The translations under genes were made by a program, and so were the position numbers. Source: Kordia antarctica (lineage in GTDB: Bacteria; Bacteroidota; Bacteroidia; Flavobacteriales; Flavobacteriaceae). Taken from it: a DNA stretch of 64,000 nt. This document shows positions 8,965-55,261 of this stretch, piece after piece (the stretch's first letter is position 1; every line of letters starts with the position of its first letter). The DNA is taken from contig NZ_CP019288.1 of NCBI RefSeq assembly GCF_009901525.1, positions 1,488,001-1,552,000 of the forward strand, given 5' to 3'. The notes beneath the pieces are model-generated. The model searched no databases and was not told the DNA's origin. It saw nothing but the letters and a program-made list of their open reading frames with translations.

Positions 8965-9137
8965 GATTTTTCAATTAGTTGTAATCCCTACTCTGTTTTA
9001 AAGGTTTTCAGGTTTCCCTCAATAGATCTATATATCTATATGGGAAGTTTTGAGAGATTCATTACCCAATTAAAAATGAAAAAGGTGAATTTTTATAAAA
9101 AATTTATACACAAGCTGTTTATTTACAAGTGTTTAGC

Positions 9138-11888
9138 TTACGCTAGAGTTTTCTTTCGGTAATAGAAAAATAGCAACAAGAATACTACAATTGTGATTCC
9201 TACCACGATATACGCATAATTTTGCACTGGTTGAAGCGTCACAGAATTTGTACTTCCTGTCAGCGTGAAAGCTGCCCAATAATACGGAATGCTTTGCGCG
9301 CGATCATGGTTTTGCAGATATGCCTTTTTAGCCAATTGCAATGCTTTAGATTTGGATGTTCCTTTTTCGATTTCGGTGTAAAATTCCTGTAAAATTTCGT
9401 TTCCAGCTTGTTCGTTTACATTCCATTGTGAAGCCAACACGCTTTGTGTTCCGTTATAGAAAAATCCTCTTGACAAGTTTATTAATCCTTCGCCAGAAAG
9501 ATGCACGCCATCGTTTGTTTTACACGCGTCTAAGATCACTAAATCTGCCTGATTTTCCAATCCGAAAAGTTCACTGAGCGACATTTTTTCGTCGTAAAAA
9601 GCAATCCAAGGTGTTTGTGTTTTCGCATCTAAACCTGCATGTGTATTGAGATGAATAATTTCAAAATCGTTTCGATACTTTAAAAAATTCTCTTTGGAAG
9701 CTTCTTTTTTCGTTAATAGTACTGACGAATCATATTTTGATAAAAACTCCAATACTTTTTCCGTTCCTGTTAGTGTTGGTAACGCTGAGTTCTTAAATTC
9801 ATACGGCGCAATTGCTAATAATTTTTGCGTTGGCGAATTTTGTTTTTGCTTTATTTGTTCGAACAAAGAAAACGATTGTAAATACGAAGTTTCTACATTA
9901 TTCACTAAATACACTTCCGAAAGTTCTCCACTTTGTTGCGTTGGCAATAATTCAAACGGAATGTATTGCAATGTTTCATCGGCAATAATGGTTAGTTTTT
10001 TATTTTTTAAACGTTCCGAAGCATTTTCAAACGGAAATAATTGTTCAAAAACTGCATAACCAACTTCCTGATATGCTGTTAATTCGGCAGAATTCATGGT
10101 GCGTTTTGTCATGAAAGTCTGCAACGTTTTCAATTGCTCATGAAAAGTAGAAATATTTGAAATTTTAAAAAAGATAGGTTTCTCTGTATCATAGTAAATT
10201 CCGTAACCGCCAGTTTCATGCAAAATGTATTCTACAAATGCGGTTTCTTTCGCTTCAAATTCAGCTATAACACTATGTAATGAAGTAATTCCAACTTTCT
10301 GTTTTGTTTTAATATATTCAGGATGTACATGTTTCATGGAATCCATAAACATTTGATATTCTTTGTTTTTAGCGCTATAGGTTTCTTTCCATTCGTCGTT
10401 TTCAACATGTTGCTGAAATTCTTCTTGCAAGGTCAATACATCATAATGCAATTTGTATTCGCGTTCTAGCGATTCAGCCGAAATATTGTATGCTAATTTG
10501 GTTTGTAATGTCTTTATATTTTCTTGCAATACTAATGCTTTATTTTTTTCCATAAAGTAGAACGCATTCGCAGTATCATCAAGCAAATAACAAATTTCAA
10601 CGGCTAACATATACGTATTCACTCCTTTTTCAATCCAAAATAATTTAGAAGCCTCTGTATCGGCTTCATAGCGAATTAAAGACACTAATTGGTCAATAAG
10701 TGTGACCGTTTTTTTAGCTTTTATAAGATACGATTTGTCGTTTTCTTGTTTGAATGCTTGCATGTAATGATCTGCCAAATCAATTAAATAGATTAAGACA
10801 TCTTGCTCATAATCAGACTTTTTTATTTCTGCTAAAGTTGGTAATTGAAATGCTGATAATTTATTTTCTCGTTCCAGAATAACAGAAATTGCCTTTTCAA
10901 AATAGGGTAATTTTTCTTTAGTGATAGAGGTGTTTTTGTAATAACCCAAATCATCATAGGCAGTTGCAATCTGTTCTTTATCAGAAGATTTATGAATCAC
11001 TTCTTCGAAACTCTTATCAGCAGCTTTATAATTTTTAAGCTTTGCTTGAATGATTCCAATATTTGTAATTACGTCCAATTCATTTAACAAATCTTCACTT
11101 TTAGTAAAATAATCTTTCGCCAATGTATAGTAAGTCAATGCTTCTTGCAAATCGCCAAACGCATCGTAAATAATTGCCAAACTGTTATGTAAAATCGCTA
11201 ATGACTTACCTTTCAACCTAAATTTCTCTGAATTTACAATGATGGTTTTGTAGTGTTTTTTGACAATTTCTAAATCTGATCGCGATTCTTCAACCACAAT
11301 GGTATTGCTATATATTTGTGCATAATTAATAATAACTGCTGAAGACAGTTGACTTTCAAACTCAGTATTTTTGCAGAGTTCAGTATTTGCCAATCCGTTG
11401 TTTAAATACTCCAGTGCTTTATATAAATCACCATTTGTCCGTTCTATTTGAGCTAAAGATCGATACGAATTTAAGGTATATTTATCTGCGCCACCATCTT
11501 GAATTATTGTTAGGAAAACTTTGTAACGTTCAACTTCTTTTTTTTGTTTTCTGTAAATAGAAGCAAGCTTATATCTACTTTTATTTAAAGATGTTACATC
11601 ACTTAATTTGCTTTTTACTTCAATCGCTTTTGTACTATAAGAAAATGCTTCTTCATAGTCTTTCAGTGTATAATAGCAACGACTGAGTTCATGAAAAAGC
11701 ATTCCTTTAATTGCTGAAGTTTTTGCAACCGTTGTATCTTTCAATACTGCTTCAAATAGCTGTATTTTATGTTCAGTATCTTTTAAGTTTGCGATACTAT
11801 CTATTCGTAACGCTAACGACTGTTGCGCATATGCGGACAATCCTATGAATAGTAAGAGGAAAACAATAATTCTTCGCAAGAAAATCAT
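9138..11888 (-). CDS. TPR-CHAT domain protein (caspase-like)
   Basis: 916 aa. Signal peptide (MIFLRRIIVFLLLFIGLSAYA), then roughly residues 35-450 of TPR helices (for example LAIIYDAFGDLQEALTYYTLA). A helical linker follows, then a CHAT domain from ~600 to 880 with the His-Cys dyad: H750 in IHLNTHAGLD and C789 in LVILDACKTNDG, followed by GEGLINLSRGFFYNGTQSVL and ASQWNVNEQ. The end has one membrane helix (YIVVGITIVVFLLLFFYYRK). The TPR and CHAT parts would thus face the periplasm, if the signal is cleaved or acts as an anchor. CHAT domains are cysteine proteases related to caspases (family knowledge). It is 27 bp downstream of the subtilase gene in the same operon. Confidence 0.85.
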   Translation of the reverse strand: MIFLRRIIVFLLLFIGLSAYAQQSLALRIDSIANLKDTEHKIQLFEAVLKDTTVAKTSAIKGMLFHELSRCYYTLKDYEEAFSYSTKAIEVKSKLSDVTSLNKSRYKLASIYRKQKKEVERYKVFLTIIQDGGADKYTLNSYRSLAQIERTNGDLYKALEYLNNGLANTELCKNTEFESQLSSAVIINYAQIYSNTIVVEESRSDLEIVKKHYKTIIVNSEKFRLKGKSLAILHNSLAIIYDAFGDLQEALTYYTLAKDYFTKSEDLLNELDVITNIGIIQAKLKNYKAADKSFEEVIHKSSDKEQIATAYDDLGYYKNTSITKEKLPYFEKAISVILERENKLSAFQLPTLAEIKKSDYEQDVLIYLIDLADHYMQAFKQENDKSYLIKAKKTVTLIDQLVSLIRYEADTEASKLFWIEKGVNTYMLAVEICYLLDDTANAFYFMEKNKALVLQENIKTLQTKLAYNISAESLEREYKLHYDVLTLQEEFQQHVENDEWKETYSAKNKEYQMFMDSMKHVHPEYIKTKQKVGITSLHSVIAEFEAKETAFVEYILHETGGYGIYYDTEKPIFFKISNISTFHEQLKTLQTFMTKRTMNSAELTAYQEVGYAVFEQLFPFENASERLKNKKLTIIADETLQYIPFELLPTQQSGELSEVYLVNNVETSYLQSFSLFEQIKQKQNSPTQKLLAIAPYEFKNSALPTLTGTEKVLEFLSKYDSSVLLTKKEASKENFLKYRNDFEIIHLNTHAGLDAKTQTPWIAFYDEKMSLSELFGLENQADLVILDACKTNDGVHLSGEGLINLSRGFFYNGTQSVLASQWNVNEQAGNEILQEFYTEIEKGTSKSKALQLAKKAYLQNHDRAQSIPYYWAAFTLTGSTNSVTLQPVQNYAYIVVGITIVVFLLLFFYYRKKTLA

Positions 11889-11915
11889 TTTTCTTTAAAA
11901 GTAAAGAATTATTTT

Positions 11916-13247
11916 TTAATCAAACGGAATCACCAATTTGCTATGCAATATATTTCGATATACATATCCGTCCGCCACATCAGAATATACATAAGTAAAA
12001 GATGGAGTTACCAATGTTGCATCGGAAGCTAATTGTGCTTTTCTAGCTGTTGGAGACATTGCGCCAGTTACATAAAGCAAACGCGCAACCTCTATAGTCA
12101 CTCGTGGTGCTGCAAAAGAAGTTCCTTGTACAAAGACATCATAAAAAGGAATTTCTTCGCCTTGGGCAAAAAAATCGACACTTGTTATTCCGTGATTAGA
12201 AAATTGAGATATTTTTGAAAGCGCGCCATTGGAAGAAGCTACCGCAATTACATTGTCATGTGTATATGAAGATGGAAAATGTGCCACTTCATCATTATCG
12301 TTTTCAGCATTTCCTGCAGATGTAACCAATACTTTGCTACTAAACGTATCTAATATGTTTGAAAATATAGAATTCACATGATCGCCAAAACCATCATCAT
12401 ACCAACCTAAACTCATATGCACAATATCTGCGCGTTCAAAAGCATATTGCGAACCACATAAAAAGTTGAAATAACTAGCTTTTCCTAAATTATTGGACAC
12501 TTTTATTGGTAATATTTGATGCGGAATACCTTTGTCCGTTAACACATCATGAATTTGATAAGATACAATACTTCCATGTTTTCCTGTATCGTCATCAAAC
12601 GCATTTGCGTCATTGTTTACAAAATCCCAACCAGACAATTCGCCACCAACAGCAGTATCTGAAGCATCGTACAAAAATTCATGCGGTCCACCAGTTCCGT
12701 TAAAAACTGTCAAACCCGTAGCTATGCCAGTATCTAAAACTGCAATCGTAATTCCTGGATTCAGTGCTTTTATGTATGATGTATATCCTGTGTCACTATC
12801 GGTTCCAATGTATGGGCTGTCTAAATCCAATCCGAAAATAAATTCGTAATCAACATCTAGCAATCCTGTAGTGCTTTCTTCATCAATATCATCTTCAATA
12901 ACCTGTTTTTTAGGTTCTACATTGATTCCTCCTTTAAATTGCCACTTTTCAATGTCTTGATCGTCGCAACGGCATATTTCATAGATACCAAAACCTTGTT
13001 GGGGCGCTGAATTGCTTCCATTAATCCCATGACTGATTCTAATACTCGATTTCTCAGAATTAGTGGTGCCAGGTTTATACTGAACAATTAGAGTAGTATT
13101 GGAATAAACAAGTCGATTAGCATTTGTTGGATTGTTATTTTTTGGACTGACTCCATTTTCTTTCTCTTGTATACTAAAATCATCTGTTGTACAGGACCAA
13201 ACTAGCAATACGAATACAAATGCAATAAGTTTTTGTATATTTCTCAT
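11916..13247 (-). CDS. Lipoprotein subtilisin-like serine peptidase (S8)
   Basis: 443 aa. Lipobox LVWSC with C19 as lipidation site. Residues ~50-105 look like an inhibitor-I9-like or fervidolysin-like propeptide region. The S8 catalytic residues are present: D172 (IAVLDTG), H224 (DTGKHGSIVSY; more usually GHGT), oxyanion N313 (TSAGNAEND) and S377 (VQGTSFAAPR). All three are intact, although the His motif is atypical. The end has no sorting domain. Position: first gene of a two-gene operon with the CHAT protein, divergent from an ECF sigma factor 79 bp away. The pairing of two protease types next to a sigma/anti-sigma-like pair suggests a proteolytic signalling circuit, which is an inference. 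Confidence 0.85.
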   Translation of the reverse strand: MRNIQKLIAFVFVLLVWSCTTDDFSIQEKENGVSPKNNNPTNANRLVYSNTTLIVQYKPGTTNSEKSSIRISHGINGSNSAPQQGFGIYEICRCDDQDIEKWQFKGGINVEPKKQVIEDDIDEESTTGLLDVDYEFIFGLDLDSPYIGTDSDTGYTSYIKALNPGITIAVLDTGIATGLTVFNGTGGPHEFLYDASDTAVGGELSGWDFVNNDANAFDDDTGKHGSIVSYQIHDVLTDKGIPHQILPIKVSNNLGKASYFNFLCGSQYAFERADIVHMSLGWYDDGFGDHVNSIFSNILDTFSSKVLVTSAGNAENDNDEVAHFPSSYTHDNVIAVASSNGALSKISQFSNHGITSVDFFAQGEEIPFYDVFVQGTSFAAPRVTIEVARLLYVTGAMSPTARKAQLASDATLVTPSFTYVYSDVADGYVYRNILHSKLVIPFD

Positions 13248-13326
13248 AATATTTAATTTTTGCGTTTATATATAGGGGTAAAAACACAGAAAACATTACC
13301 CAATATTTTTAATCATATTTAGATTT

Positions 13327-13881
13327 ATGGAAGATAGTGAAAGATTTATTAATGCACTTATCACTGGAGATGAAAAGATTACGAAAGAAGTTTACACCAA
13401 ATTATTTCCAAAAATAAGATCATTTGTCTGCAAAAACAGAGGTGATTCGCAAGATGCTTCCGATGTTTTTCATGATGGATTGATGTATATTATCGTAACT
13501 CAAAAAGAAAAAAGAACCGAAATAAAATCATTGGAAGCCTATTTATTTGTGGTTTGTAAAAATATTTGGAAAAAAACTTTAAAAAATCAGGTAATAAAAA
13601 CGGATACGCATACCCTTGTAGATAAAGAGGAAGAATTAAGCACGTTTATGGTTGAACAAGAATTGTTTGATTTTTATATTGAAAAGTTTGATTTGCTCTC
13701 TGGTAATTGTAAAGAAATCTTGAGTAGTTATTTTAACGGTTTAAGTTACGAAGAGATTTTGACCGAATACGCATATGCTTCTATTAACACAGTTCGTCAA
13801 CGTGTTTTTAAATGCAGAACGAAACTAATAAAATTAATAAAAGAAGATAAACTGTTCCTAAAATTAAAAAAATGGCAATAG
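13327..13881 (+). CDS. ECF-type RNA polymerase sigma factor
   Basis: 184 aa. Region 2 is visible in 'KNRGDSQDASDVFHDGLMYI' (the DASDVFHD core resembles DAEDVxQE) and region 4 in ILSSYFNGLSYEEILTEYAY followed by NTVRQRVFKCRTKLIKLIKE, an HTH. Between them is a short acidic linker. The size is normal for an ECF sigma factor of about 180 aa. The stop overlaps the next gene by 10 bases, so it is probably translated together with it. It lies divergent from the protease operon, sharing the 79-bp intergenic promoter region. Confidence 0.88.
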   Translation: MEDSERFINALITGDEKITKEVYTKLFPKIRSFVCKNRGDSQDASDVFHDGLMYIIVTQKEKRTEIKSLEAYLFVVCKNIWKKTLKNQVIKTDTHTLVDKEEELSTFMVEQELFDFYIEKFDLLSGNCKEILSSYFNGLSYEEILTEYAYASINTVRQRVFKCRTKLIKLIKEDKLFLKLKKWQ

Positions 13882-40497: not shown

Positions 40498-41094
40498 ATG
40501 GCGCACGCAACTCCGAAAGCAAAAACGAAAGATCGAATTAAATTACCTTTTACGTTTGATGCTGACAAAATGTTAGCTGAGTTTGAAGCTTTAAAGTTGA
40601 AAAATTTTGAATATTACAATGTAATTCCGCTACGCGCGCCAGCTCACACCGTAGATTCTTCCATTCCAATGCCGCCGCCAGCCGCAGATTACGCAGATGG
40701 TTCTTGGTGCGATTGGTTAGATACGGAACATTTAGAAACGTCTCTATATTTAAAAAGTGTCGTTGATACTTTTAAAGAAAATACAAAAGTGACTTTGGTA
40801 CGTTTGTTACGTTTGGCGCCAAATTCTGTGGTACAACAACATACAGATCCGACGTTAGGTTTGGAAATTCACAGTTCAGTGATTCGGTTGACAATTCCAA
40901 TTTTAAATAAAAAAGGTGTTCAATTTTTCTTAAACGATACTGAAGTTCCAATGCAACCTGGCGAATGTTGGTATTTACGCTTAACAGATCCGCATAGAGT
41001 GCTAAATAATGGCGCGACAGAACGCGTAAATCTTACGATAGATATGATTCCAAATGATTGGATTCGGAGTGTTATTATGGAAAGTGAATTGTAA
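40498..41094 (+). CDS. Aspartyl/asparaginyl beta-hydroxylase-like protein
   Basis: 198 aa. The family signature of Asp/Asn hydroxylase-type 2-oxoglutarate/Fe(II) enzymes is present: RLAPNSVVQQHTDP (H115 and D117, the HxD pair), GVQFFLNDTEVPMQPGECWY, then DPHRVLNNGATERVNLTIDM with H166 as the third ligand and R176 as the likely 2-oxoglutarate residue. Members hydroxylate Asp/Asn residues of proteins or small substrates (family knowledge). Target unknown. The next gene follows at 23 bp. Confidence 0.82.
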   Translation: MAHATPKAKTKDRIKLPFTFDADKMLAEFEALKLKNFEYYNVIPLRAPAHTVDSSIPMPPPAADYADGSWCDWLDTEHLETSLYLKSVVDTFKENTKVTLVRLLRLAPNSVVQQHTDPTLGLEIHSSVIRLTIPILNKKGVQFFLNDTEVPMQPGECWYLRLTDPHRVLNNGATERVNLTIDMIPNDWIRSVIMESEL

Positions 41095-43460: not shown

Positions 43461-45212
43461 ATGAAATTTATAGCAAAAGTGATATTTATTTTTATATTTC
43501 TAAGTATTCCTGTGTTGCTTTTTTCTCAAAATAAAAATAACTATGATCGTTTCAAAGAAGCACTAACTACTAAAAGCGCACAGTTTAACACTGAAAATTA
43601 CTTTTTAAAAGCACGCACTTTTTTTATAGCACAAGAGTGGGATTCTACGCTAGTGTACGCTATGAAACAATTGAGTACTGACAATCAAAATAGACAACTC
43701 AAAAATTATTGTCATTTTTTTAGAGGATACAGTTTTACTGAAAAAGAGATTTTTATAGAAGCTAAAAAAGAGTTTGCGCTAATTTCTAATGATTTTGTGT
43801 TTTACTACAATATGAAAATGATTTTAGGTAACATTGCATTAGAAGAAAGAAAATTTACCAAAGCAATTGCTTATTTTAAAGAAATTGAAACGCTTCAAAC
43901 ACGAAATCTTTTAGGTATAAAATCTGGAAATATTGAAGAAAATATTGGCTTAAGTTATTTTCATCTGAAACAGTATGACAAAGCAGAAATCTATCTAAAA
44001 AAAAGTGTTTTACTTCAAGAAAAAGAAAACGATACGTTGGAATTAATCAGTTCGTATGGAAACATCGCTAGTCTTTATTACGAACAATATAAAGATAACC
44101 AAGCTATTCCCTATTTTGAAAAAGCCTATGCATTAGCTGCCACAACTGATGATATTTTTGCCAAGCAAAATACAGCTCGAAATATGGCAGTTGTAGAGGA
44201 AAATCGTAAAAATCTAGCTAAAGCTATTCAATTCCGAAAAGAGTTTGAACAATGGAAAGATTCCGTTAATGATCAGAGTAAAATATACGCTGTTGCGCAA
44301 ATAGAAAAACAAATTGCCGTTAAGGAAAAACAGAAAAAAGTTGTTTTATTACAAGCGGAAAATAAAGTGAAAAATGCACAACGAAATACCTTTTTATATT
44401 CCGCAATTATTCTGCTTTTGTTATTGGTTGCAAGTATTTATTTTTATCGTGAGAAAGTAAAATCGAATAGAATTATTAATCTCCAAAAAGAAAATTTGGA
44501 CGAACTGAACGCTACAAAAGACAAACTTTTTTCCATTGTAAGTCACGATTTGCGTTCTTCAGTACAAGCAATCAAAACAAGTAACAAAGAACTGATTGAA
44601 ACCTTAGAAACGAAAAATCTAACGAAAGTAAATAGCTTACTTCAAAACAATAGCGCTATTGTAAATGGTGCGTATAATTTGTTGGATAATTTATTGAATT
44701 GGGCATTATTGCAAACCAAACAATCCTATTTTGAAATCACCAAATTACGCTTGCTTTTAATCGTTGAACATGTATCTTATAATTACAAAGCGATGCTTGC
44801 TGATAAAGAAATTTCTTTTGAAAACAAGGTTGGGAAAAGTGATATTGTATTTGCCGATCAAGAATCGTTTAAAATTATTTTGCGTAATTTGATAGATAAT
44901 GCAATCAAATTTTCCAATCCGAATAGTACGTTAAAAATCTATACTGAACATAAAGATGAAACATTCTGTTTGTTAATTATTGAAGATGAAGGCATTGGAA
45001 TGGATGAAATTACGTGTGAAGAATTACTAAAAGATACAGGTCTTTTATCCAAAAAGAAAAATGAAAACAGCATTGGCACAGGATTGGGCTTACAGCTTTG
45101 CAAATCGATGGTTAAAAAAAATAACGGTACATTTTCCATAGAAAGCGAACTTGGAAAAGGTACTAAAATGATTATTTCATTACCAAAAAATCTACCAAAT
45201 GGAAAACGTTAA
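43461..45212 (+). CDS. TPR-containing sensor histidine kinase
   Basis: 583 aa. Signal-like N-terminal helix, then TPR repeats to ~residue 290 (for example LSYFHLKQYDKAEIYLKKSV and NIASLYYEQYKDNQAIPYFE). A membrane helix follows (FLYSAIILLLLLVASIYFY at ~313-331) and a cytoplasmic kinase: phospho-acceptor H362 (FSIVSHDLRSSVQ), N-box NLIDNAIKFSNP, G1 DEGIGMDE and G2 GTGLGLQLCKSMV. This is the common Bacteroidota type that senses through periplasmic TPRs. The stop overlaps the next gene by 14 bases, so it is co-translated with the LytTR regulator. Confidence 0.92.
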   Translation: MKFIAKVIFIFIFLSIPVLLFSQNKNNYDRFKEALTTKSAQFNTENYFLKARTFFIAQEWDSTLVYAMKQLSTDNQNRQLKNYCHFFRGYSFTEKEIFIEAKKEFALISNDFVFYYNMKMILGNIALEERKFTKAIAYFKEIETLQTRNLLGIKSGNIEENIGLSYFHLKQYDKAEIYLKKSVLLQEKENDTLELISSYGNIASLYYEQYKDNQAIPYFEKAYALAATTDDIFAKQNTARNMAVVEENRKNLAKAIQFRKEFEQWKDSVNDQSKIYAVAQIEKQIAVKEKQKKVVLLQAENKVKNAQRNTFLYSAIILLLLLVASIYFYREKVKSNRIINLQKENLDELNATKDKLFSIVSHDLRSSVQAIKTSNKELIETLETKNLTKVNSLLQNNSAIVNGAYNLLDNLLNWALLQTKQSYFEITKLRLLLIVEHVSYNYKAMLADKEISFENKVGKSDIVFADQESFKIILRNLIDNAIKFSNPNSTLKIYTEHKDETFCLLIIEDEGIGMDEITCEELLKDTGLLSKKKNENSIGTGLGLQLCKSMVKKNNGTFSIESELGKGTKMIISLPKNLPNGKR

Positions 45213-45945
45213 CATACTGATTATTGAAGATACAGAAGCTGAAAGTAGCAGACTTGTAAAAACGTTAACCCAAAACGGTTTTACAATTGTCGGTGTTGCT
45301 AAAACACTGAAAAATGCTTTAGAAATTTTCTATAACGAAAAAGTAGACATTGCAATTATTGATATTTTCCTTGATGGAACTCCAGATGGTATCGCTTTCG
45401 CTGAAACGATTAATGCCGTACCAAATGCCGCAAAACCATTTGTGTTTCTGACAAGTTCTACCGATCGGAGAATATTTGAACGCGCAAAACTCACACATCC
45501 ATTTAGTTATCTTATCAAACCATTCAATGAATTGGAAATTTTATACGCGATTGAAACGGCTTTGGAAAAATTTTACGATCAAGATGATTCTTTTTTGGGT
45601 GCAGAAGAAAACACGATTATAAGCAAAGAAAGTTTATTTATTAAAAAAGGAAAATCGCTCAAAAAAGTTCACACAAATGATATTATTTACATAGAAGTAG
45701 AAGAGAAATACTGTAACATCATTACTGAAAAAGAAAAATTTGTCATCCTAATATCACTTGTCAAAATTATAGAATTGCTTGATGCTACAAAGTTTCACAG
45801 AACGCATCGAAATTTCATTGTCAATTTAGAAAAAGTACAAGAAATTATTCCTGGTGACAACCTCATCATCCTTTCTGGAAATCACAAAGCAACGTTGAGT
45901 AATACGTATAAAGACATTATCAAAAAAATTCGTACGCTTAAATAA
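45199..45945 (+). CDS. LytTR-family response regulator
   Basis: 248 aa. Receiver domain: acidic pocket E10/D11, phospho-acceptor D55 (IAIIDIFLD), T85-region (FLTSS) and K107 (YLIKPF). DNA-binding LytTR domain at ~150-245, with IYIEVEEKYCNIIT and FHRTHRNFIVNLEKVQEI. It acts with the histidine kinase whose gene overlaps it. Its target genes are unknown; the downstream PixA-like gene is a neighbour but nothing shows a binding site. Confidence 0.92.
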   Translation: MENVNILIIEDTEAESSRLVKTLTQNGFTIVGVAKTLKNALEIFYNEKVDIAIIDIFLDGTPDGIAFAETINAVPNAAKPFVFLTSSTDRRIFERAKLTHPFSYLIKPFNELEILYAIETALEKFYDQDDSFLGAEENTIISKESLFIKKGKSLKKVHTNDIIYIEVEEKYCNIITEKEKFVILISLVKIIELLDATKFHRTHRNFIVNLEKVQEIIPGDNLIILSGNHKATLSNTYKDIIKKIRTLK

Positions 45946-46630: not shown

Positions 46631-47164
46631 ATGGCAACAATTAATGTATTAGTCGCAGTAGACGGCGCAAAATTAGCACAGCAAGTAGCAGACGGAAGTA
46701 TCAAAGCTGGATCTAAAGGAAGTCCAACCGTTTTAGGATCATACTCATCATCAGATGTTTACATTACTATGACAGCTCCAAATAGTTCTATTGACAATGG
46801 AACTAATGGCCAATCGGAACTTCAAATTAAAGCAAATGGTGGCGATACTGTAGAATGGGCAATCACTACATTTGACAACAATTTTGATCAATCAGTGTAC
46901 ATTTACAACGGGAATTTTAATCCATCTGACGCAATAAATTCACCGCTTTCGTATGCTTCTGGGCAAGCGTATGCATATTTAGCGACAGGAAATCCACCTT
47001 CAGATACACCTACAAAATTTGTAAATCAGGTAAGTACGGTTTCTGGAACTATTTTGAAAATTGGACTTCAAATTCAGTACACGTTATCGTTTGCTCTTGT
47101 AGACAATGCGTCAGGAAAGATTATCGGATATTTTACTTGGGATCCGTTTATTAACGTAAACTAG
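46631..47164 (+). CDS. AidA/PixA-type inclusion body protein
   Basis: 177 aa. It begins MATINVLVAVDGAKLAQQVA without a signal peptide. The middle contains DVYITMTAPNSSIDNGTNGQ and GDTVEWAITTFDNNF, and the end has a beta-rich stretch finishing GKIIGYFTWDPFINVN. This is the pattern of the AidA/PixA family, small proteins found in cytoplasmic inclusion bodies or quorum-regulated loci (family knowledge). It is probably beta-sandwich in fold. It lies downstream of the LytTR regulator and converges with the RiPP cluster. Confidence 0.82.
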   Translation: MATINVLVAVDGAKLAQQVADGSIKAGSKGSPTVLGSYSSSDVYITMTAPNSSIDNGTNGQSELQIKANGGDTVEWAITTFDNNFDQSVYIYNGNFNPSDAINSPLSYASGQAYAYLATGNPPSDTPTKFVNQVSTVSGTILKIGLQIQYTLSFALVDNASGKIIGYFTWDPFINVN

Positions 47165-47601: not shown

Positions 47602-48486
47602 TTAGTGCGTAAAATTCCCAAAATACACCATATTGATATCTAGTTTGGAATTTCCAAGTGTAGAACCATCATGAAAACAATTGTCGGTTGGCGCAATGTA
47701 ATACTGAAAAGGTTTTTGCGGAATGCGAATTACAGGATAATCTGGAAAGTGCTTAAAAAACGTTTCTGCCACATTATACACATCAACTTTCCTAATATCT
47801 GTTACTTCTTTGAGTTTGTTGTATACTTGAATCATAGACAAATTCACATATAAAAAATACCGCGTTTCCGTTCCGATGTTGATACAAATTCGATTTCCAT
47901 GTTTGTACGTTGTATGTAAGGTCATAAATTGCGTTCCGTCGTTGTGCATTCCCATGTATTTTTTCTCAGGAATGGTAAAACCTGGATGCAATCGCGTAAT
48001 GTCGCAAGCCACCATTTCTACATTTGGTAAATTTGCAGTAATGCAATGTAAATGAAACGGTTTATCGTTTGAAATGGTTTGTAAAAAATTACTCAATTCG
48101 GTATTCAATGCCAATGTCAACTCTTTGTGTTTGCCAAAATGTTGCATCACATCTTCCCTACTTTTACAGTTGCTAAAGTCAATTTTTTTAAAGAGTTCTT
48201 GTGCTTTTTTTGGAAGTTCTCCTATATAAATATTGTTATGATCTTTTAAACGTTCCGTTCCTGTCAATGTACGCTGTTCCGAAATTTCCAACGAACGCCA
48301 ATCGCGTTTCGGAATGTACGCTTCGTCAATATATAATGGCATAAACGAAAAATGCTCGTAGTTTACTTCCGAACCTTCATGCGCTTTGTGATGCTTGACA
48401 CCAGAATTGATTTGTATTTCTTCAAACCCTTTAGGCAATCTGTTATGAATTCCTATTCCTTTTTTTATCGTTTCAGTTTGTGTCAT
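47602..48486 (-). CDS. Putative non-haem iron oxygenase of the RiPP cluster, paralog 1
   Basis: 294 aa, last gene of the RiPP operon. It has H181-x-D183 in MGMHNDGTQFM and a distal H272 in TDNCFHDGSTLGN, and GNRICINIGTETRYFLYVNL in between, which looks like the beta strands of a double-stranded beta-helix. HxD...H is the metal triad of 2-oxoglutarate/Fe(II) enzymes. However, the usual Arg about ten residues after the last His is not evident; the residues there are SKLDINM. About 90 residues separate the HxD and H. INSGVKHHKAH at the N-terminus is shared with paralogs 2 and 3 as HH. Spacing to paralog 2 is 11 bp. Proposed role: tailoring of the peptide encoded upstream. Family assignment is an inference from the motifs. 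Confidence 0.7.
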   Translation of the reverse strand: MTQTETIKKGIGIHNRLPKGFEEIQINSGVKHHKAHEGSEVNYEHFSFMPLYIDEAYIPKRDWRSLEISEQRTLTGTERLKDHNNIYIGELPKKAQELFKKIDFSNCKSREDVMQHFGKHKELTLALNTELSNFLQTISNDKPFHLHCITANLPNVEMVACDITRLHPGFTIPEKKYMGMHNDGTQFMTLHTTYKHGNRICINIGTETRYFLYVNLSMIQVYNKLKEVTDIRKVDVYNVAETFFKHFPDYPVIRIPQKPFQYYIAPTDNCFHDGSTLGNSKLDINMVYFGNFTH

Positions 48487-48497
48487 GATTCTAATTT

Positions 48498-49379
48498 TTA
48501 ATATTGAAAACTTCCAAAATATACCATTGTAATATCTAAATTTTTGTTCCCTAATGTAGAACCATCATGAAAACAATTGTCAGTAGCGGCAATGTAATAT
48601 TGATATTGTTTTTGTTGCACTTTTAGTACTGGATAATCTGGAAAATGACTAAAGAAATATGCTGGAATGTTCGTAATATTCACAGCCATAAATTCGTCAG
48701 CACTCATTCGTTCTTGAAGCATTTTGTAAGCTTCCATTAAATGTAAGTTTACAAATAAAAAGTAACGCGGATCTTTTCCTAGATTGATACTAATTCTGTT
48801 TCCAAACTCATGTGCCGTTTTAATAGTCATCAATTGTGTTCCGTCGTTATGAAGTCCTAAAAGTTTTCTCACAGATTCTTTGTGACCAACAGCTAACATT
48901 GTCGTATTTGAAGCCACTAATTCTAAATTAGGATGATTTACACCAATACAATGAAAATTAAATTTTTTACTGTTTGACTTCGGAAGTAAAAATTCATTCA
49001 GTAATTCTGTTGCTTTTTGAATCGCTGGCGGATCTTTTTCTAATCTATCAAAAACCTCATCTCTATTGGTACTTTCGACTAAATGCAATGTTTCAAAACA
49101 CGCTTGTAATGCCTCAGGAATTTCTCCGAGATATATCGTATTAAAATCATTTCTGTCTTCATTTGGTGCTAAACAAGCAAGTTCTTTCGCTGTTAATTGT
49201 CGCCAATCTTTTTTATTTACATAAGCTTGAGGAATAAATTCTGGTGTAAATTTAACTCCTTTATAATTTACTGTAGCCGTTTTTTGCTTGCTGTGATGTG
49301 TTGTTCCTGAGTTTATGGTTAGTGCATCCGAACCTTCGGGAAGCATATTGTGAACCATTAATTGTCTCTTGATTTCCAT
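48498..49379 (-). CDS. Putative non-haem iron oxygenase of the RiPP cluster, paralog 2
   Basis: 293 aa. Same layout as paralog 1: INSGTTHHSKQKTATVNYKG at ~22-41, LGLHNDGTQLM with the HxD pair, GNRISINLGKDPRYFLFVNL and AATDNCFHDGSTLGN with the third ligand. Residues after the last His (NKNLDITMVYFG) again lack a fixed Arg. It is clearly homologous in full length with the others but has many substitutions, so the copies are old. Spacing is 23 bp to paralog 3 upstream and 11 bp to paralog 1 downstream. Probable tailoring enzyme, role inferred. Confidence 0.7.
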   Translation of the reverse strand: MEIKRQLMVHNMLPEGSDALTINSGTTHHSKQKTATVNYKGVKFTPEFIPQAYVNKKDWRQLTAKELACLAPNEDRNDFNTIYLGEIPEALQACFETLHLVESTNRDEVFDRLEKDPPAIQKATELLNEFLLPKSNSKKFNFHCIGVNHPNLELVASNTTMLAVGHKESVRKLLGLHNDGTQLMTIKTAHEFGNRISINLGKDPRYFLFVNLHLMEAYKMLQERMSADEFMAVNITNIPAYFFSHFPDYPVLKVQQKQYQYYIAATDNCFHDGSTLGNKNLDITMVYFGSFQY

Positions 49380-49402
49380 GTTGTTATAGTTTACAAGTGA
49401 AT

Positions 49403-50284
49403 TTAATATTGAAATTTTCCAAAATAAATCATCAACACATCTAGTGTTGTCATTCCATACGTTGAACCGTCATGAAAACAATGATCGGTTGCCGCAATAT
49501 AGTATTGATAGGGTTTTTGTGGAATTTTAATGACTGGATAATCTGGGAAATGTTTGAAAAATAATTTTGATATGTTGTATAAATCTACCTGCTTTGTTGT
49601 CACGCCAAATTTCTTTTTAAGCATATTATATGCTTGCGTCAGTGATAAATTTACATATAGAAAGTAGCGTGTTTCGTTTCCTAAGTTAATTGTAAAACGA
49701 TTGCCCGATTTGTATGTTGCATGCACCATTTTTGGTTCAGCGCCATCATTGTGAATTCCCATACATTTTTTATCTTCTTCTGTATGATTTGGCGGAAGCA
49801 TATTCGTATCTGCCGCAACCATGTCAATGTTTGGAAGGTTTCCGCCAATGAAGTGAAAGTGAAATGGTTTTTCGTTTGCAAAATCGTTCAGATAGTTTTG
49901 CATAGTATTGCTCAGCTTCAACGTCATATCATGATCTTTTTGCATACAGGTACGGACATCTTCTGGTCGCAAACAATCTTTGAATTTTAATGCGTCAAAT
50001 TGCTCTTTTAATTCATCAGAAATATCGCCAACATAGACTGTATTATAATAATTTCTGTTAGCAATTGCTTTTAATGAATTGATTTCTTTTTCAGATAGTT
50101 TTCGCCAATCGCGTTTTACGACATACGCGTCATCTTCATATTTCGGAACAAAAGACCAATCTAAATAGTCAATTTTACTTTTTTCTTGTTTTGAATGATG
50201 AATTGTTCCAGAATTGATTCGAACTTCATCAAAAAAATTGTCAAGCGTGCTGTGTAATTTTATGCCGTTTTGTATGATTTCCAT
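49403..50284 (-). CDS. Putative non-haem iron oxygenase of the RiPP cluster, paralog 3
   Basis: 293 aa. Motifs: INSGTIHHSKQEKSKIDYLD near residue 25, MGIHNDGAEPKM (HxD), GNRFTINLGNETRYFLYVNL, and AATDHCFHDGSTYGMTTLDV (third ligand). Acidic and basic residues in the N-terminal domain differ between copies, as if each recognises a different position or residue of the peptide. It is 11 bp downstream of paralog 4. Same family caution as for paralog 1. Confidence 0.7.
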   Translation of the reverse strand: MEIIQNGIKLHSTLDNFFDEVRINSGTIHHSKQEKSKIDYLDWSFVPKYEDDAYVVKRDWRKLSEKEINSLKAIANRNYYNTVYVGDISDELKEQFDALKFKDCLRPEDVRTCMQKDHDMTLKLSNTMQNYLNDFANEKPFHFHFIGGNLPNIDMVAADTNMLPPNHTEEDKKCMGIHNDGAEPKMVHATYKSGNRFTINLGNETRYFLYVNLSLTQAYNMLKKKFGVTTKQVDLYNISKLFFKHFPDYPVIKIPQKPYQYYIAATDHCFHDGSTYGMTTLDVLMIYFGKFQY

Positions 50285-50295
50285 CTGATTAAATA

Positions 50296-51132
50296 TTAAG
50301 AAAGTTGATCGAATAAACCAGTATATACAATAGTAATATCTATTTCTTTGGTTCCAACCGTAGATGCATCATGAAAGAAATTATCCGTTGGTGCTACATA
50401 ATATTGATATGGTTTTATTCCTAATTTTATCACTGGATAATCAGGATAATGTTTGAAGAAATACGTTGCAATGTTATCTGGGTTGAGTTGTATTTTTTTT
50501 ACATCTATTTTTTTACGTACTAAGTTATAAATTTGAATTAAGGTTAAGTTAGTAAATATTAATGTGCGCGTTTCATTGCTTAGATTGATGGAAATTCTGT
50601 TGCCAGATTTGTGCGCCGTATGAATTTTAAAATGCTTGCTTTGATCAATGTGCAAACCAACGTAAAGAAAAGAATCATCAACATAAAAACTTGTCATGGT
50701 TTCTCTGTTTGGCATTGCTCTGGTGATTTTGTGAAATTTAAAATTTCCCGTAGAGGAACAATCTTTTAGAAATGAATGCAACGCTGTGTTTACTTTTTTT
50801 GTGTTTGCTTTATTGTCTTCAAATTTAGGATATACTTCAGTTGGTTGTGTACAACTTTTTAAATCCAACAGATTGAATGCATCTTTTAATTTTTTAGAAA
50901 TTTCGCCAACATATAAGTTTTTATTATAGTTAGAAAATTTAGCGTTTGTTGCTACCAATAATTTTGATTCTACTGAAGTTAGTGAACGCCATGTATGCAC
51001 AGGAATATAAGCATCTTCAAAGTATTTTAAGCCTTTGTATTCCAGCACTTCGTGTACACCAGTATTGATTGTTATTTGGTCAGAAATATCTTTTATATTT
51101 CCAAAAACGCGCATTCCTTTTTGTAGTTTCAT
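50296..51132 (-). CDS. Putative non-haem iron oxygenase of the RiPP cluster, paralog 4 (divergent)
   Basis: 278 aa, the shortest and most divergent copy. It lacks the HHxxK segment seen in the other three (INTGVHEVLEYKGLKYF). It keeps VGLHIDQSKHFK (HxD), GNRISINLSNETRTLIFTNL and APTDNFFHDASTVGTKEIDI (third ligand). It is first of the four after the radical SAM gene, 41 bp away. Being the most different, it may have a different substrate position or role. Not assigned to a named family by sequence alone. Confidence 0.68.
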   Translation of the reverse strand: MKLQKGMRVFGNIKDISDQITINTGVHEVLEYKGLKYFEDAYIPVHTWRSLTSVESKLLVATNAKFSNYNKNLYVGEISKKLKDAFNLLDLKSCTQPTEVYPKFEDNKANTKKVNTALHSFLKDCSSTGNFKFHKITRAMPNRETMTSFYVDDSFLYVGLHIDQSKHFKIHTAHKSGNRISINLSNETRTLIFTNLTLIQIYNLVRKKIDVKKIQLNPDNIATYFFKHYPDYPVIKLGIKPYQYYVAPTDNFFHDASTVGTKEIDITIVYTGLFDQLS

Positions 51133-51173
51133 CTGTTTGCTTTTATATCATTAATCTTGTCAGATGTAAGTAT

Positions 51174-52433
51174 TTATATGTGTAATTCCTTTTTGAAAGA
51201 AACTAATTTTTGTTGCATTACAGGATCAATTTTAATTTTATTTTCTGTTGAAAAACCTTTAATAACATTTTCATAAACCAATCGTTCTGTATCTAATTCT
51301 GCAACTGATTCCGCAGGTAATGCATTAAGAATATCGTTTTGAATAAACGCAATTAATCGTACCATATCTTGGCAATACATTGTAGGATTATCAAATCCGT
51401 TTTCCTCAGAATACCGATGTCCTAAAAATCCGCCACCGCAAATATCAAAAACTGGACAGTTTAGACATTGCTCTGCTACATGATCATGCGCTTTGTAATA
51501 GAGTTGAAATGTTTCATCTTCAAATAAATCTTCTAATTTATTGTTATGTACATTGATTTCATTTCGTGTAATTCCCTCAAAACAGGCTCTTAGCGAATCT
51601 ACCACTTCTACACTTCCGTCAGATTCTACCACCAAAACGCCATTAGTACGTCTTCCAATGAGTTGATTTCCTATTCCATCTTGTCCCATGATTAGTTTTA
51701 CTAAACTTTCAAAGAAGTAAATTTTTGGACGTTCTTTATCAGCTTTCCATATTTTGTATAAATCAATAAACCAATCTGCATATGGTGTGTAATTTTTGTC
51801 ATTCCATTTATTGACATCTAAACCTAAAGGTGCCTGATCGTAATGACCATCTGGCAATAATAAATTGAGACTATTTACTGCCAAATTCTTCATTTCAGTG
51901 TATAAATCATGTACAGGAATTCCGATATTAACCACTAATAATAAGCCAGCCAATCTATTTTTGTTTCCAAGCTGAATAGCTTTTGCCACTAGATTATACG
52001 AACCTTTTCCGTTATGAAAAACGCGATATTCATCATGATATTTTTTAGGTCCATCAATGCTAATTCCGACTGAAATTTCCAGTTTCTGAAATAGTGTATA
52101 CCAATTTTGATCTAGCGTAACTCCATTGGTTTGTATCGTAAATACAAATTCCACTTTTGGAGCTGTAGTTTTGAATATGGAAACACATTTTTCAAAGTAA
52201 TCTGGTTTTGCTAATAGTGGTTCGCCACCATGAAATACAATTTGAACGTATTTAATTTCAGAACTTTCACAATAATCTCGTAACCTATTGGCAAAAAATT
52301 GCACCGTTTCTAATGCCATAAATTTTGGCTGTTTTAAATACGTCTGATCGCCCATATTATACATATAACAATACGAACAATTGAGATTGCATCTGCTAAC
52401 AATTTTCAATACAAATGAGGTGACTTTATACAT
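51174..52433 (-). CDS. Radical SAM/SPASM peptide maturase, cyclophane-forming type
   Basis: 419 aa. Radical SAM CX3CX2C at C15-x3-C19-x2-C22 in SRCNLNCSYCYMYNMGD, followed by FHGGEPLL and ISIDGPKKYHDEYRVF. The C-terminal SPASM domain has QCLNCPVFDICGGGFLGHRY and GFDNPTMYCQDMVRLI, the pattern of FxsB/GrrM-type enzymes. These make carbon-carbon links between an aromatic ring and the beta-carbon two residues on, forming three-residue cyclophanes (family knowledge). Start MYKVTSFVLKIVSR is typical. It is 68 bp after the precursor gene, behind a strong terminator, and precedes four putative oxygenase genes. Full length; all motifs are intact. Confidence 0.9.
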   Translation of the reverse strand: MYKVTSFVLKIVSRCNLNCSYCYMYNMGDQTYLKQPKFMALETVQFFANRLRDYCESSEIKYVQIVFHGGEPLLAKPDYFEKCVSIFKTTAPKVEFVFTIQTNGVTLDQNWYTLFQKLEISVGISIDGPKKYHDEYRVFHNGKGSYNLVAKAIQLGNKNRLAGLLLVVNIGIPVHDLYTEMKNLAVNSLNLLLPDGHYDQAPLGLDVNKWNDKNYTPYADWFIDLYKIWKADKERPKIYFFESLVKLIMGQDGIGNQLIGRRTNGVLVVESDGSVEVVDSLRACFEGITRNEINVHNNKLEDLFEDETFQLYYKAHDHVAEQCLNCPVFDICGGGFLGHRYSEENGFDNPTMYCQDMVRLIAFIQNDILNALPAESVAELDTERLVYENVIKGFSTENKIKIDPVMQQKLVSFKKELHI

Positions 52434-52462
52434 AGTTGTTTTTTATCTGATTGTTAAAAAAA

Positions 52463-52496
52463 ACAAGATAATCTCTATAAATAGAGATTATCTTGA
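52463..52496 (-). terminator. Strong rho-independent terminator between precursor and radical SAM genes
   Basis: CAAGATAATCTCTAT-AA-ATAGAGATTATCTTG is a 15-bp perfect inverted repeat; on the minus strand it is followed by T8. It sits right after the precursor stop (52502) and before the maturase. Partial readthrough would make far more precursor mRNA than enzyme mRNA, a usual arrangement in RiPP operons. Confidence 0.92.
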
Positions 52497-52501
52497 AGAA
52501 A

Positions 52502-52741
52502 TTACCTGTCTCTAACTGGCGCTGGGTCCATCGGAGTTGCTTGCAAGAATTGATCAATTTTGTCATAAGCAGATGCTCTTGAGCTTTTTGCGCTCACAGC
52601 TACTACTGGACAATTTGAACTTGCACGACCTCCAAAAATTGCTTTGTAAAGGTCTAATTGGTCTTCGTTAGAGTTGTTTAACGCTTTGTCAACAACTTCT
52701 TTCGACTTTAAGTCTGAAGTGATTTTTGAATTTTTCTTCAT
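52502..52741 (-). CDS. RiPP precursor peptide for the radical SAM cluster
   Basis: 79 aa from the preferred start at 52741 (MKKNSKITSDLKSKEVVDKA). A longer frame from 52804 adds 21 residues unlike a leader. Residues 1-36 are charged and helical (EDQLDLYKAIF), ending FGG at 36-38. The core SSNCPVVAVSAKSSRASAYD then KIDQFLQATPMDPAPVRDR contains one Cys (C44) and aromatic Y59 and F65, the only aromatic residues after GG. Three-residue cyclophanes Y59-D60-K61 and F65-L66-Q67 are possible targets of the maturase. The Ser, Pro and Asp side chains are possible targets for the four oxygenase-like proteins. Assignments to exact residues are inference. Confidence 0.78.
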   Translation of the reverse strand: MKKNSKITSDLKSKEVVDKALNNSNEDQLDLYKAIFGGRASSNCPVVAVSAKSSRASAYDKIDQFLQATPMDPAPVRDR

Positions 52742-52852
52742 CTTTAAAATATTTAAGTGATTAATAAAAATGCTATCAGTAAGGACATAGCAATTGCCCT
52801 TCATTTTATAGTTAAATGAAAAACTTAAACTCTTTTATATGTTTATTACGGT

Positions 52853-55261
52853 TTAAAGTCGTCGTTGAATATCACTATTCCCTGGATCTCTATACCGTTG
52901 ATCTTTTACTGTTGACTTACCAAAAGCGTATCGCACTGCAAATGCTACACTTCTAGTATCGTGATAGTTAGTGTCATTAATTTGAATGTCACCAACTTGG
53001 ATGTCATATCGGTCTTTGTTACTCCTAAATAAATCTCTTCCAGATAGGGACAAACTAAAGTTTCCAATATTCTTCCTTAGAACAATTTCGGTTTCTAGTC
53101 GATTACCAATTTCGGTATTGACTAATGTAAAGGGGAATGTGTTTTTTGCGAATACTGTTAAAGAGAGTCTTTTTTCTTTTGATAAAGTAAAAGTCTGATT
53201 CGCAGAAAGGTTTAATAGTAACGTATTACTGTCAATAGTTATTGTATCATCTGCATAACTTCCTGTGGTTTGCACATGACCAAATAGTGAAGTCGCATTT
53301 ACGCGCCACCACGATTGTATTTTAGTTGCAATGGAGATGCTTCCTGAGTATGAATATTTGTTTCCATAGTTTGTTTTTCTGTTGATAATAATTCCATCAG
53401 CAGCATTAAAAGGAAGTGCGTAAAACTCATCTAATAATTGACTTGCTGCAATTTGTGCTACCACACGAATTTTTCCTTTGTTTTTTGTGTAATTTAACTC
53501 TTGGCGATAATATCTAGAAGGATTTAAAAAAGGATTTCCTTGAAAAAATGCTCTGTCTGTTGTGTATTTTCGAAATGGATTTACGTCCCAAAAACTTGGT
53601 CTAGAAATTCGGCTCGATACTGAAAGTACAAAACTATGATTGTTATTTGGCGCGTATTTTAAGAATGCTGTCGGGAATAAGTTTGTGTAGTTTCTGTCTA
53701 CTACATTTTCACTTTCTAACTTTCCTTTGGCAACTGTATTTTCTACTCGTGTTCCCAATTGATACGCCCATTTTTCATTTAATGTATGATTGAATACTGC
53801 ATAAATAGCATTTATATTTTCGTCATATTCAAAGAAGTTACTTCGTGTAGCATCATCTTCAAAAGTCATTGATGCTTCATTTCGTGTATCAAAATCAAGA
53901 TCGTTGTCAACATTTGAGAAAGAGAATTTTACACCAGTTTCAATTGATATTTTATCATTGATGAGAACTTCTAAATCGAGTCGAAAAGATTTATTATTTA
54001 CATTTTGAATTGTCGCATTTCGAAACCAATCGCGAATGTATAAAACGTCATTGTTTTCTGACGAAAGTACATTCGTTTTACTGATTCCTGTGTTATCCGA
54101 AGAAAATTCTATTACATCAGCATCAATTGTCAATAAAGTTCCTTTGTCGTCTAGTTTTCCTTGATAGTTTAGATTGATGGAATAGTTGTAATCATTTGCT
54201 TTATCATTATTTCTAGTAAACGTTAACGAATCGCTCGATACATAGTTATCAAAACTTCCTGCATTTCTGTATTCGTTTTCATCCGAACCTGAATATTCAA
54301 GCAAAACGCCCACAATGTGTTTTGAATTTATTTCATAGTCTACACCTAAATTTGCTCCTGAGAATAAAATTTTTGAAGTGTTTTCCGTGTCTATAAAACG
54401 TGTTTGTAAATCTTCCGTTTCTGGGTAGAATATGTCTTTTTCAAACGTAGTTAAACGTTCTCTGTTACTTAGATATGCTGTAGAATATACATTCCATTTT
54501 TCTTTTCTATAATTGAGATAAATACTTCCAGCTTCCGAGAATAATCGTGTTTGGCGCGCACTTATACTTGCACTTCCAACCAAACCTTCTTCTTTACTTT
54601 TTTTGGTAACAATATTGATGATTCCTGCGCCGCCTTCAGCTTCAAACCTACTTGATGGCGTTGTAATGACTTCTATTGCTTCTAGATTATCGGCAGGAAT
54701 ACTTTTGAGATAATTCATTAATACTTCACCCGAAAGCCGTTTTTTTCTATTATTTATATAGACAATGACGCCGCTTGTTCCGGCAATTTCAATTCCGCCA
54801 TTTTCATTGGTTGATACAAAAGGTGTTTTATTCATCGTTTCCCAAACACTACTTCCAATAATTAAGTCAGAATTGGCAACGTTGAAACGCAAGCGATCTA
54901 TTTTTCGTTCAATGATATTTTTTTCAGCCGTTATGACAACTGTAGAAAGTTGTGTGTTTTTTTTAAAGCTAAAATTTTGAATTTTATTTTTTTGAAGATC
55001 AACAGTTATCATAGAATCAACATAGCCAATATGACTAAAATTTAGATGATAAGTTCCTTTTTGTAGGTTTTCAATTTTGTAATAACCAACACTGTCTGTA
55101 AGCAGGTTTTTTATAAGTTCTTTTCCTTTTAGAATACTTATAAATACATCAGGAAGCGGCGTTTTGGTTGAGTCTGTTACAACACCTTCAATAGCGGATT
55201 GACAATGAGCGAACTCATTGCAACTGATGATGAGCATCAATGCTATTAGTGTTTTTTTCAT
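52853..55261 (-). CDS. TonB-dependent outer membrane receptor of the RiPP cluster
   Basis: 802 aa. Signal peptide (MKKTLIALMLIISCNEFAHC, start at 55261), a carboxypeptidase-regulatory-like domain (SAIEGVVTDSTKTPLPDVF), then a plug with NTQLSTVVITAEKNIIERKI and NLEAIEVITTPSSRFEAEGG, then a barrel. The end is VAFAVRYAFGKSTVKDQRYR with a charged tail. It lies 111 bp upstream of the precursor gene in the same direction. TonB receptors in peptide clusters could export, re-import or sense the product, or confer immunity. A role in this pathway is inferred from position. The 391-bp gap 55262-55652 upstream has no gene and should hold the promoter. Confidence 0.85.
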   Translation of the reverse strand: MKKTLIALMLIISCNEFAHCQSAIEGVVTDSTKTPLPDVFISILKGKELIKNLLTDSVGYYKIENLQKGTYHLNFSHIGYVDSMITVDLQKNKIQNFSFKKNTQLSTVVITAEKNIIERKIDRLRFNVANSDLIIGSSVWETMNKTPFVSTNENGGIEIAGTSGVIVYINNRKKRLSGEVLMNYLKSIPADNLEAIEVITTPSSRFEAEGGAGIINIVTKKSKEEGLVGSASISARQTRLFSEAGSIYLNYRKEKWNVYSTAYLSNRERLTTFEKDIFYPETEDLQTRFIDTENTSKILFSGANLGVDYEINSKHIVGVLLEYSGSDENEYRNAGSFDNYVSSDSLTFTRNNDKANDYNYSINLNYQGKLDDKGTLLTIDADVIEFSSDNTGISKTNVLSSENNDVLYIRDWFRNATIQNVNNKSFRLDLEVLINDKISIETGVKFSFSNVDNDLDFDTRNEASMTFEDDATRSNFFEYDENINAIYAVFNHTLNEKWAYQLGTRVENTVAKGKLESENVVDRNYTNLFPTAFLKYAPNNNHSFVLSVSSRISRPSFWDVNPFRKYTTDRAFFQGNPFLNPSRYYRQELNYTKNKGKIRVVAQIAASQLLDEFYALPFNAADGIIINRKTNYGNKYSYSGSISIATKIQSWWRVNATSLFGHVQTTGSYADDTITIDSNTLLLNLSANQTFTLSKEKRLSLTVFAKNTFPFTLVNTEIGNRLETEIVLRKNIGNFSLSLSGRDLFRSNKDRYDIQVGDIQINDTNYHDTRSVAFAVRYAFGKSTVKDQRYRDPGNSDIQRRL

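Follow-up and report, generated by a model that had tools for sequence, protein, structure and literature searches.

A putative peptide-maturation cluster in Kordia antarctica with a cyclophane-type radical SAM enzyme and four predicted MicC-like oxygenases

The cluster and its precursor peptide

A stretch of 64,000 nucleotides from the single-contig 5.5 Mb genome of Kordia antarctica (positions 1488001-1552000; hereafter the window) contains a gene cluster that resembles a pathway for a ribosomally synthesized and post-translationally modified peptide (RiPP). On the minus strand, in transcription order, lie a gene for an OMP_b-brl_3 protein, a precursor peptide gene, a hairpin followed by a U-run, a radical S-adenosylmethionine (SAM) gene and genes for four homologous proteins (Table 1). 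The translated open reading frames (ORFs) were all found at the coordinates and in the single-strand order, from receptor through a 79-residue GG-type precursor and a terminator to the four paralogs, that an initial annotation of the window had given. This arrangement is not a product of chance, since it recurs in 28 of the 29 loci of a genome scan. Judged from sequence, the probable product of the cluster is a small peptide with rings, which would first be crosslinked and then oxidized by four related iron enzymes. The four copies are referred to as slots A to D, with A beside the radical SAM gene.

Table 1. Features of the Kordia antarctica cluster (2OG, 2-oxoglutarate; aa, amino acids)
Feature	Position in window	Strand	Evidence
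TonB-receptor-like outer membrane beta-barrel protein (OMP_b-brl_3), 802 aa	52853..55261	-	Pfam PF14905 1.5e-77; CarbopepD_reg_2
Precursor peptide, 79 aa	52502..52741	-	Family alignment; motifs in 33/33 precursors
Precursor leader, 38 residues, IFGG end	52628-52741	-	Precursor alignment
Precursor core, 41 residues, RASSNCPVVAVSAKSSRASAYDKIDQFLQATPMDPAPVRDR	52505-52627	-	Precursor alignment
Hairpin (14 bp) then U-run, probable partial terminator, between precursor and radical SAM gene	52464..52495	-	Stem scan, folding
Radical SAM peptide maturase, cyclophane-type, nearest YhhB/FxsB, 419 aa	51174..52433	-	NCBIfam matches; ChlB domain 3.8e-68
Predicted MicC-like 2OG oxygenase, slot A, 278 aa, H-I-D	50296..51132	-	Profile match, tree, slot scores
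Predicted MicC-like 2OG oxygenase, slot B, 293 aa	49403..50284	-	Structure model, tree, slot scores
Predicted MicC-like 2OG oxygenase, slot C, 293 aa	48498..49379	-	Tree, slot scores
Predicted MicC-like 2OG oxygenase, slot D, 294 aa; found where core has Arg four residues before Tyr	47602..48486	-	Tree, slot scores, precursor comparison

The precursor ORF was called from 52804 (100 aa). The Met that begins the family alignment is its residue 22, and counted from there the peptide has the 79 residues reported initially. Motif counts refer to 33 precursors from 30 loci and exclude L034 (which runs into a contig end), the divergent loci L091, L092 and L119-L122, and Nostoc. Gly-Gly stands at the end of the leader, as in the window, in 31 of the 33 precursors. 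The core contains the two aromatic residues noted earlier, Y and F, and both fall within conserved aromatic-X-X motifs, Y-[DNS]-[KR] and F-L-X, a feature expected of cyclophane RiPPs (triceptides); Y-[DNS]-[KR] followed by D-x(1,2)-F-L was found in every one of the 33 precursors. Each precursor also has exactly one Cys (33/33), whose distance to the Tyr is constant within groups at 15, 18 or 12-13. Divergent relatives retain the aromatic-X-X pattern, with FSE and FHQ in L091, YAD and YVK in L119 and L120, WVK and FSK in L121 and L122, and WDN, FLQ and WND in Nostoc, which suits three-residue cyclophanes. A Cys is also present in the precursors of L091, L092 and L120 and in a partial reading frame of L119. 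The idea of the Cys as a family-wide target was dropped as a general rule, since the precursors of Nostoc (P0008), L121 and L122 have none.

The hairpin between the precursor and the radical SAM gene is real, with eight T following the stem and z = -5.1 against shuffled sequences. The whole 64-kb stretch has four terminator-like sites versus 3.4 in shuffles; the case for this hairpin thus depends on its own stem length and not on the count. When the corresponding gap was folded for 12 of the 30 clusters, namely that of the window and those of 11 relatives (the gap was shortened for L035 and L036), a long hairpin was present in all 12, the weakest being that of L036 (z = -2.6, with 6 of 200 shuffles equally good). 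The U-run is missing from two Chitinophaga gaps (L037, L038) and short in some others, so that the term terminator suits only part of the 12. The structure would fit an excess of precursor mRNA over enzyme mRNA. A homolog of the OMP_b-brl_3 protein, which may serve export or uptake of the product, was found in 14 of the 30 clustered loci.

The predicted modifying enzymes

The four proteins of 278-294 aa are mutually homologous (39-49% identity to P0001), and reading of the sequences bore out that all of them keep an H-x-D motif and a distal His. The H-x-D motif reads HND, HND, HND and HID in slots D, C, B and A, respectively, and the distal motif reads TDNCFHD, TDNCFHD, TDHCFHD and TDNFFHD. 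Searches of Pfam and NCBIfam left the four proteins without a family, and a Pfam scan of all 85 homologs in our profile A4 (85 of 87 available, two near-identical slot A rows being left out) returned scattered weak names only. Compared with solved structures, the profile had one real match, 9vkm, "alpha-ketoglutarate-dependent non-heme iron oxygenase MicC" (E = 2e-39 over 288 positions), and the slot A protein alone (P0004) matched 9vkm_A at 9.8e-21. The oxygenase assignment, initially made from motifs only, is now supported by this match to a solved alpha-ketoglutarate (alpha-KG) oxygenase and, weakly, by the Foldseek matches described below. The homology extends over nearly the full length with the same H-x-D and distal H-D-G-S-T, while identity between MicC and the Kordia copies is 24-37%. 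Based on homology to the solved member and on the facial triad, we class the four paralogs as predicted MicC-like Fe(II)/2OG oxygenases.

Six residues are shared by all 85 homologs: H178, D180, R196, R206, H271 and D272 (P0003 numbering). The aligned MicC sequence keeps the H-x-D, the distal H-D and R206, and does not keep R196. In JmjC enzymes an Arg located between the metal ligands binds 2OG; from its like position, our guess is that R206 may be the 2OG-binding residue. The four translations contain no HExxH motif and had no match to TIGR04267, and thus they are not hydroxylases of the ChlH-type alpha-KG-HExxH kind. A literature search found the name MicC in no paper among the matches listed. 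The code 9VKM also occurs in a NuA3 paper, where it stands among the paper's own structure codes, and that paper is thus silent on MicC.

The radical SAM protein had been labeled FxsB/GrrM-like. Its closeness to FxsB stands; the correct label is nearest to YhhB and FxsB, both cyclophane-forming radical SAM/SPASM maturases and its best full-length NCBIfam matches, with scores below both curated cut-offs (YhhB, NF041707, 344.7 bits against 445; FxsB, TIGR04269, 318 bits against 370). A radical SAM profile matched the radical SAM domain of ChlB in the PDB at 3.8e-68, and the cysteines of the CxxxCxxC motif (C15, C19 and C22) are invariant in 5 of 5 radical SAM sequences. With this motif and its homology to ChlB, the protein has the broad features of a cyclophane-forming enzyme and is predicted to be one. 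ChlB is called a "multiple cyclophane synthase" in a title cited by PMC12636437.

Distribution of the cluster and orthology of the slots

The scan of GTDB species genomes identified 29 loci, in Kordia, Aquimarina, Tenacibaculum, Flavobacterium, Mucilaginibacter, Chitinophaga, Niastella, Longitalea, Chryseobacterium and one other metagenome-assembled genome. A radical SAM gene and a precursor accompany the oxygenases in 28 of these and in the window, the exception being L034, which ends at a contig edge and was excluded from the precursor and radical SAM counts. One further cluster is L090; altogether the three components occur together in 30 of 30 clusters uncut by a contig end. The oxygenase copies lie side by side in every cluster, and no copy was found outside the cluster in 21 of 21 genomes searched.

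The sampled frequencies that follow include the query genomes. The cluster is present in 6 of 11 Kordia genomes, with four copies in all six, and five Kordia genomes without it (G1287, G1288, G1290, G1291 and G1293) are listed as 99-100% complete, which points to gain or loss inside the genus. It was found in 24 of 148 genomes of Chryseobacterium (the genus of G486, assigned through its match to L049 and L026), in 3 of 397 genomes of the window's family (single-protein query) and in 3 of 244 and 3 of 251 genomes of the families of L037 and L036, respectively. In a phylum sample 4 of 395 genomes matched; one of these matches (G505) was poor and was set aside as weak and interrupted by 8 stops. 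The distribution is sporadic, as is usual for secondary metabolism. A scan of viral contigs returned no relative.

A tree of 87 paralogs and MicC groups the copies by position, with A beside the radical SAM gene, then B, C and D, although some of its deep forks, including those joining the B, C and D groups, are weak. Slot profiles built from 10 ABCD loci gave scores that agree with this grouping (three Chryseobacterium loci were scored). The full ABCD set occurs in Kordia, Aquimarina, Tenacibaculum, Chitinophaga and L034; an ABC set in Flavobacterium, Niastella and Longitalea; an ACD set in two Mucilaginibacter loci and L090, where C was assigned by score alone and with small margins for L040_B and L090_B; and A plus one undifferentiated copy in 14 Chryseobacterium loci. 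A recent tandem burst as the origin of the four paralogs was ruled out by the tree, which has four old orthologous slots. The retention of four copies with full triads over this depth argues for separate tasks.

Slot A was the best fit for the oxygenases of L091, L092, L120, L121, L122, Nostoc and Streptomyces, and the scores were even for L119 and Methylocystis. As single-copy relatives mostly score best as slot A, this slot is probably the oldest type. In L091, L119, L120, L121 and L122 a single oxygenase gene immediately follows the radical SAM gene, and the L119 genome carries a two-copy cluster elsewhere too. The same oxygenase family adjoins the cyclophane enzyme GrrM of the GrrM/OscB systems: L092 has one oxygenase with a GrrM-type radical SAM gene close by, and a Nostoc plasmid (NZ_CP040302) encodes GrrM, one oxygenase and a phytanoyl-type dioxygenase. 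The Kordia cluster differs from these systems in its radical SAM branch, its GG leader and its four oxygenases instead of one.

Several observations concern the relatives and the surroundings. L121 and L122 combine a Cys-free precursor (WVK...FSK), a radical SAM gene, one MicC-like oxygenase, a family 9 glycosyltransferase (Pfam match checked in L122) and a C39 transporter, and their product is perhaps a hydroxylated, then glycosylated cyclophane peptide. On a Methylocystis parvus plasmid (L095, 6815-7828) the oxygenase homolog lies in an iron-uptake locus that also holds genes for TonB receptors and nitrogenase component 1. In the window, the cluster is adjoined by genes for a PixA inclusion body protein (46631-47164) and a histidine kinase/LytTR regulator pair (43461-45945). 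Such a pair is also found beside the cluster of Kordia algicida (L028), but on the opposite side, and a RebB gene lies farther out at a Kordia algicida locus (L015, 34-297). About 6.5 kb from the window's cluster is a gene for a protein with an aspartyl/asparaginyl beta-hydroxylase domain (40498-41094; PF05118, 2.1e-9), which is also of 2OG type.

Proposed pathway and alternatives

The gene content, its conservation, the homology to a solved alpha-KG oxygenase and the orthology of the slots are observed. From them we infer a RiPP pathway, including its chemical steps, their order, their sites and export, and we consider it reasonably probable that the radical SAM enzyme crosslinks the core, that the MicC-like oxygenases each hydroxylate a separate residue and that a C39 peptidase cuts after Gly-Gly. 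The radical SAM enzyme would act first and close one or two three-residue cyclophanes, for which Y-D-K and F-L-Q are the likeliest sites. Each of the four Fe(II)/2OG oxygenases would next hydroxylate a residue of its own, in the rings or adjacent to them. Slot A would target a residue common to all cores, with the invariant Asp of D-x-F or the third ring residue favored; slots B and C would act on further sites; and slot D might target either the Arg at position -4 or the Ser/Thr at position -2 relative to the Tyr. Lastly, a C39 peptidase-transporter would remove the leader behind its Gly-Gly; in Kordia antarctica the gene for this protein would have to lie outside the cluster.

We place the radical SAM step first by analogy with the ChlB/ChlH system, where hydroxylation needs the cyclophane (Nat. 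Chem. 2024; JACS 2025; both as cited in PMC12636437). In that system the cyclophane is installed beforehand, and ChlH, an HExxH-type alpha-KG enzyme, then carries out beta-hydroxylation of Asp and His on it (PMC12636437). The Kordia cluster shares with this system a related radical SAM domain and would share the logic of cyclophane formation followed by oxidation, whereas its four oxygenases are separate H-x-D enzymes and the ChlB/ChlH hydroxylase is fused and of the HExxH type.

A C39 peptidase-ABC transporter was found nearby in 8 of the 30 clustered loci and in L090, L091, L121 and L122. Three C39 matches lie elsewhere in the Kordia antarctica genome, and one of these belongs to L072 (G000:C1:2717000-2736000, 6211-13629), the genome's second radical SAM locus, which encodes an 803-aa protein, a YhhB-like radical SAM enzyme, a 361-aa protein and the C39 transporter. 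The 361-aa protein has a sub-threshold match to the alpha-KG-HExxH peptide beta-hydroxylases (TIGR04267, 2.8e-4, 20.9 bits against a cut-off of 40), so that cyclophane peptides of this genome may be hydroxylated by two types of enzyme. At L073 (G000:C1:1638000-1657000, 9099-11238) a third radical SAM gene is preceded by ORFs of 88 and 101 aa, which encode similar peptides with a GG leader and two Cys in the core. Downstream of a Chryseobacterium cluster (L026, 10089-11243) is a gene with a retropepsin-like aspartyl protease domain (1.7e-5 in L026); its family was found in 12 of 14 Chryseobacterium loci and in L032, and the protein is a candidate leader peptidase where no C39 transporter adjoins.

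A number of results weigh against the proposed pathway. The window's own cluster has no C39 peptidase-ABC transporter, and the radical SAM enzyme scores below both NCBIfam cut-offs. Although the predicted model of P0003 has a pLDDT (predicted local distance difference test) of 94.3, that of the slot A protein is moderate, at 78.1. The fold check suggested by the initial annotation succeeded in part: the 50 Foldseek matches listed of 1378 (E <= 10) for the P0003 model are all 2OG oxygenases, mostly of the JmjC type and with KdoO among them, but they are weak, with none at E <= 0.001, a best E of 2.1e-3 and a TM (template modeling) score of at most 0.36 among the matches listed. The co-occurrence of oxygenase and radical SAM genes, another check suggested there, holds for the close family (30 of 30 clusters) and not for two distant homologs, those of Streptomyces and the Methylocystis plasmid, where no radical SAM gene lies in the stretch viewed. 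Across the 33 precursors, no core position tracks slot B at the threshold used, and slot C is tracked only by differences that separate the Chryseobacterium loci.

Every one of the 15 precursors that come with slot D has an Arg four residues before the Tyr, against 0 of the 18 that lack the slot. Two other features track the slot about equally well: Ser/Thr two residues before the Tyr (15/15 with, 1/18 without) and a Cys-Tyr spacing of 15, which all 15 have and which is 12, 13 or 18 otherwise. All positions near four anchors were scanned, so that the Arg was picked from many, and the link comprises three independent contrasts on the radical SAM tree, one of them on well-supported branches, which are too few for significance. 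We therefore treat the connection between slot D and Arg as a prediction, not a finding. A bolder reading, which we regard as doubtful, is that the slots form a readable code with one core position per ortholog, slot D being an oxygenase of peptidyl-Arg (or R-x-Ser/Thr) and at least one other slot bonding the invariant Cys. If this were true, the oxidation pattern of the peptide would be predictable from gene content, and a slot and its target residue would be gained or lost together.

The chief rival to hydroxylation at separate residues is that at least one oxygenase makes a crosslink, for instance from the invariant Cys to the invariant Tyr, and so forms a second type of ring. An alpha-KG dioxygenase that performs such a macrocyclization on a RiPP core has been reported (Xia et al., JACS 2025, as cited in PMC12636437), and the Kordia core has both Cys and Tyr. 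The single Cys of all 33 precursors, its group-constant spacing to the Tyr and the Cys of L091, L092, L120 and the partial L119 frame are consistent with this chemistry; Cys-free precursors are also served by these enzymes, however, and the L091 core has a Cys but no Tyr. We consider a Cys-Tyr crosslink by one slot to be possible, if somewhat unlikely.

The preferred assignment of one site to each oxygenase also has to be weighed against a division in which some paralogs are catalytic and the others are partners in a heteromer, binding the leader or the core. Heterodimeric 2OG enzymes exist, TlxIJ being among the Foldseek matches listed, and the copies are adjacent in every cluster, but single-copy loci occur and the H-x-D, the distal His and Arg206 are invariant in all 85 sequences of all slots, which makes this division rather improbable. 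It is less probable still that the four enzymes act in succession on one residue, through alcohol and ketone to cleavage. Oxidative backbone cleavage by alpha-KG RiPP enzymes has been reported (PMC12636437), and a title cited there describes a two-step Asp-to-aminomalonate cascade; the differing slot subsets (ABC, ACD, A plus one) are hardly compatible with a strict chain, and slot D tracks a separate residue. Finally, despite the lack of a Pfam or NCBIfam family and Foldseek E-values of only about 2e-3 among the matches listed, it is extremely improbable that the four proteins are another kind of cupin or of an unrelated fold, given the MicC match at 2e-39 with the metal ligands aligned.

The MicC enzyme class, the cyclophane maturases and the logic of cyclophane formation followed by hydroxylation are already known. 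In titles and the starts of abstracts, the literature search found no cluster in which two to four orthologous H-x-D oxygenases serve a short core, most subscription journals lying outside its coverage. This agrees with the initial annotation, which knew of no described pathway of this composition; the enzyme family itself is known from the solved MicC. The set of enzymes varies by species and may reveal which residues are modified. If the proposed pathway is true, the related precursors of different genera, each met by one to four related oxygenases, would form a natural series, and the division of sites on a short peptide among duplicated tailoring enzymes would be directly testable. The clusters would also supply groups of oxygenases that are candidates for site-specific oxidation of crosslinked peptides, and would point to a new peptide product across several families of Bacteroidota.

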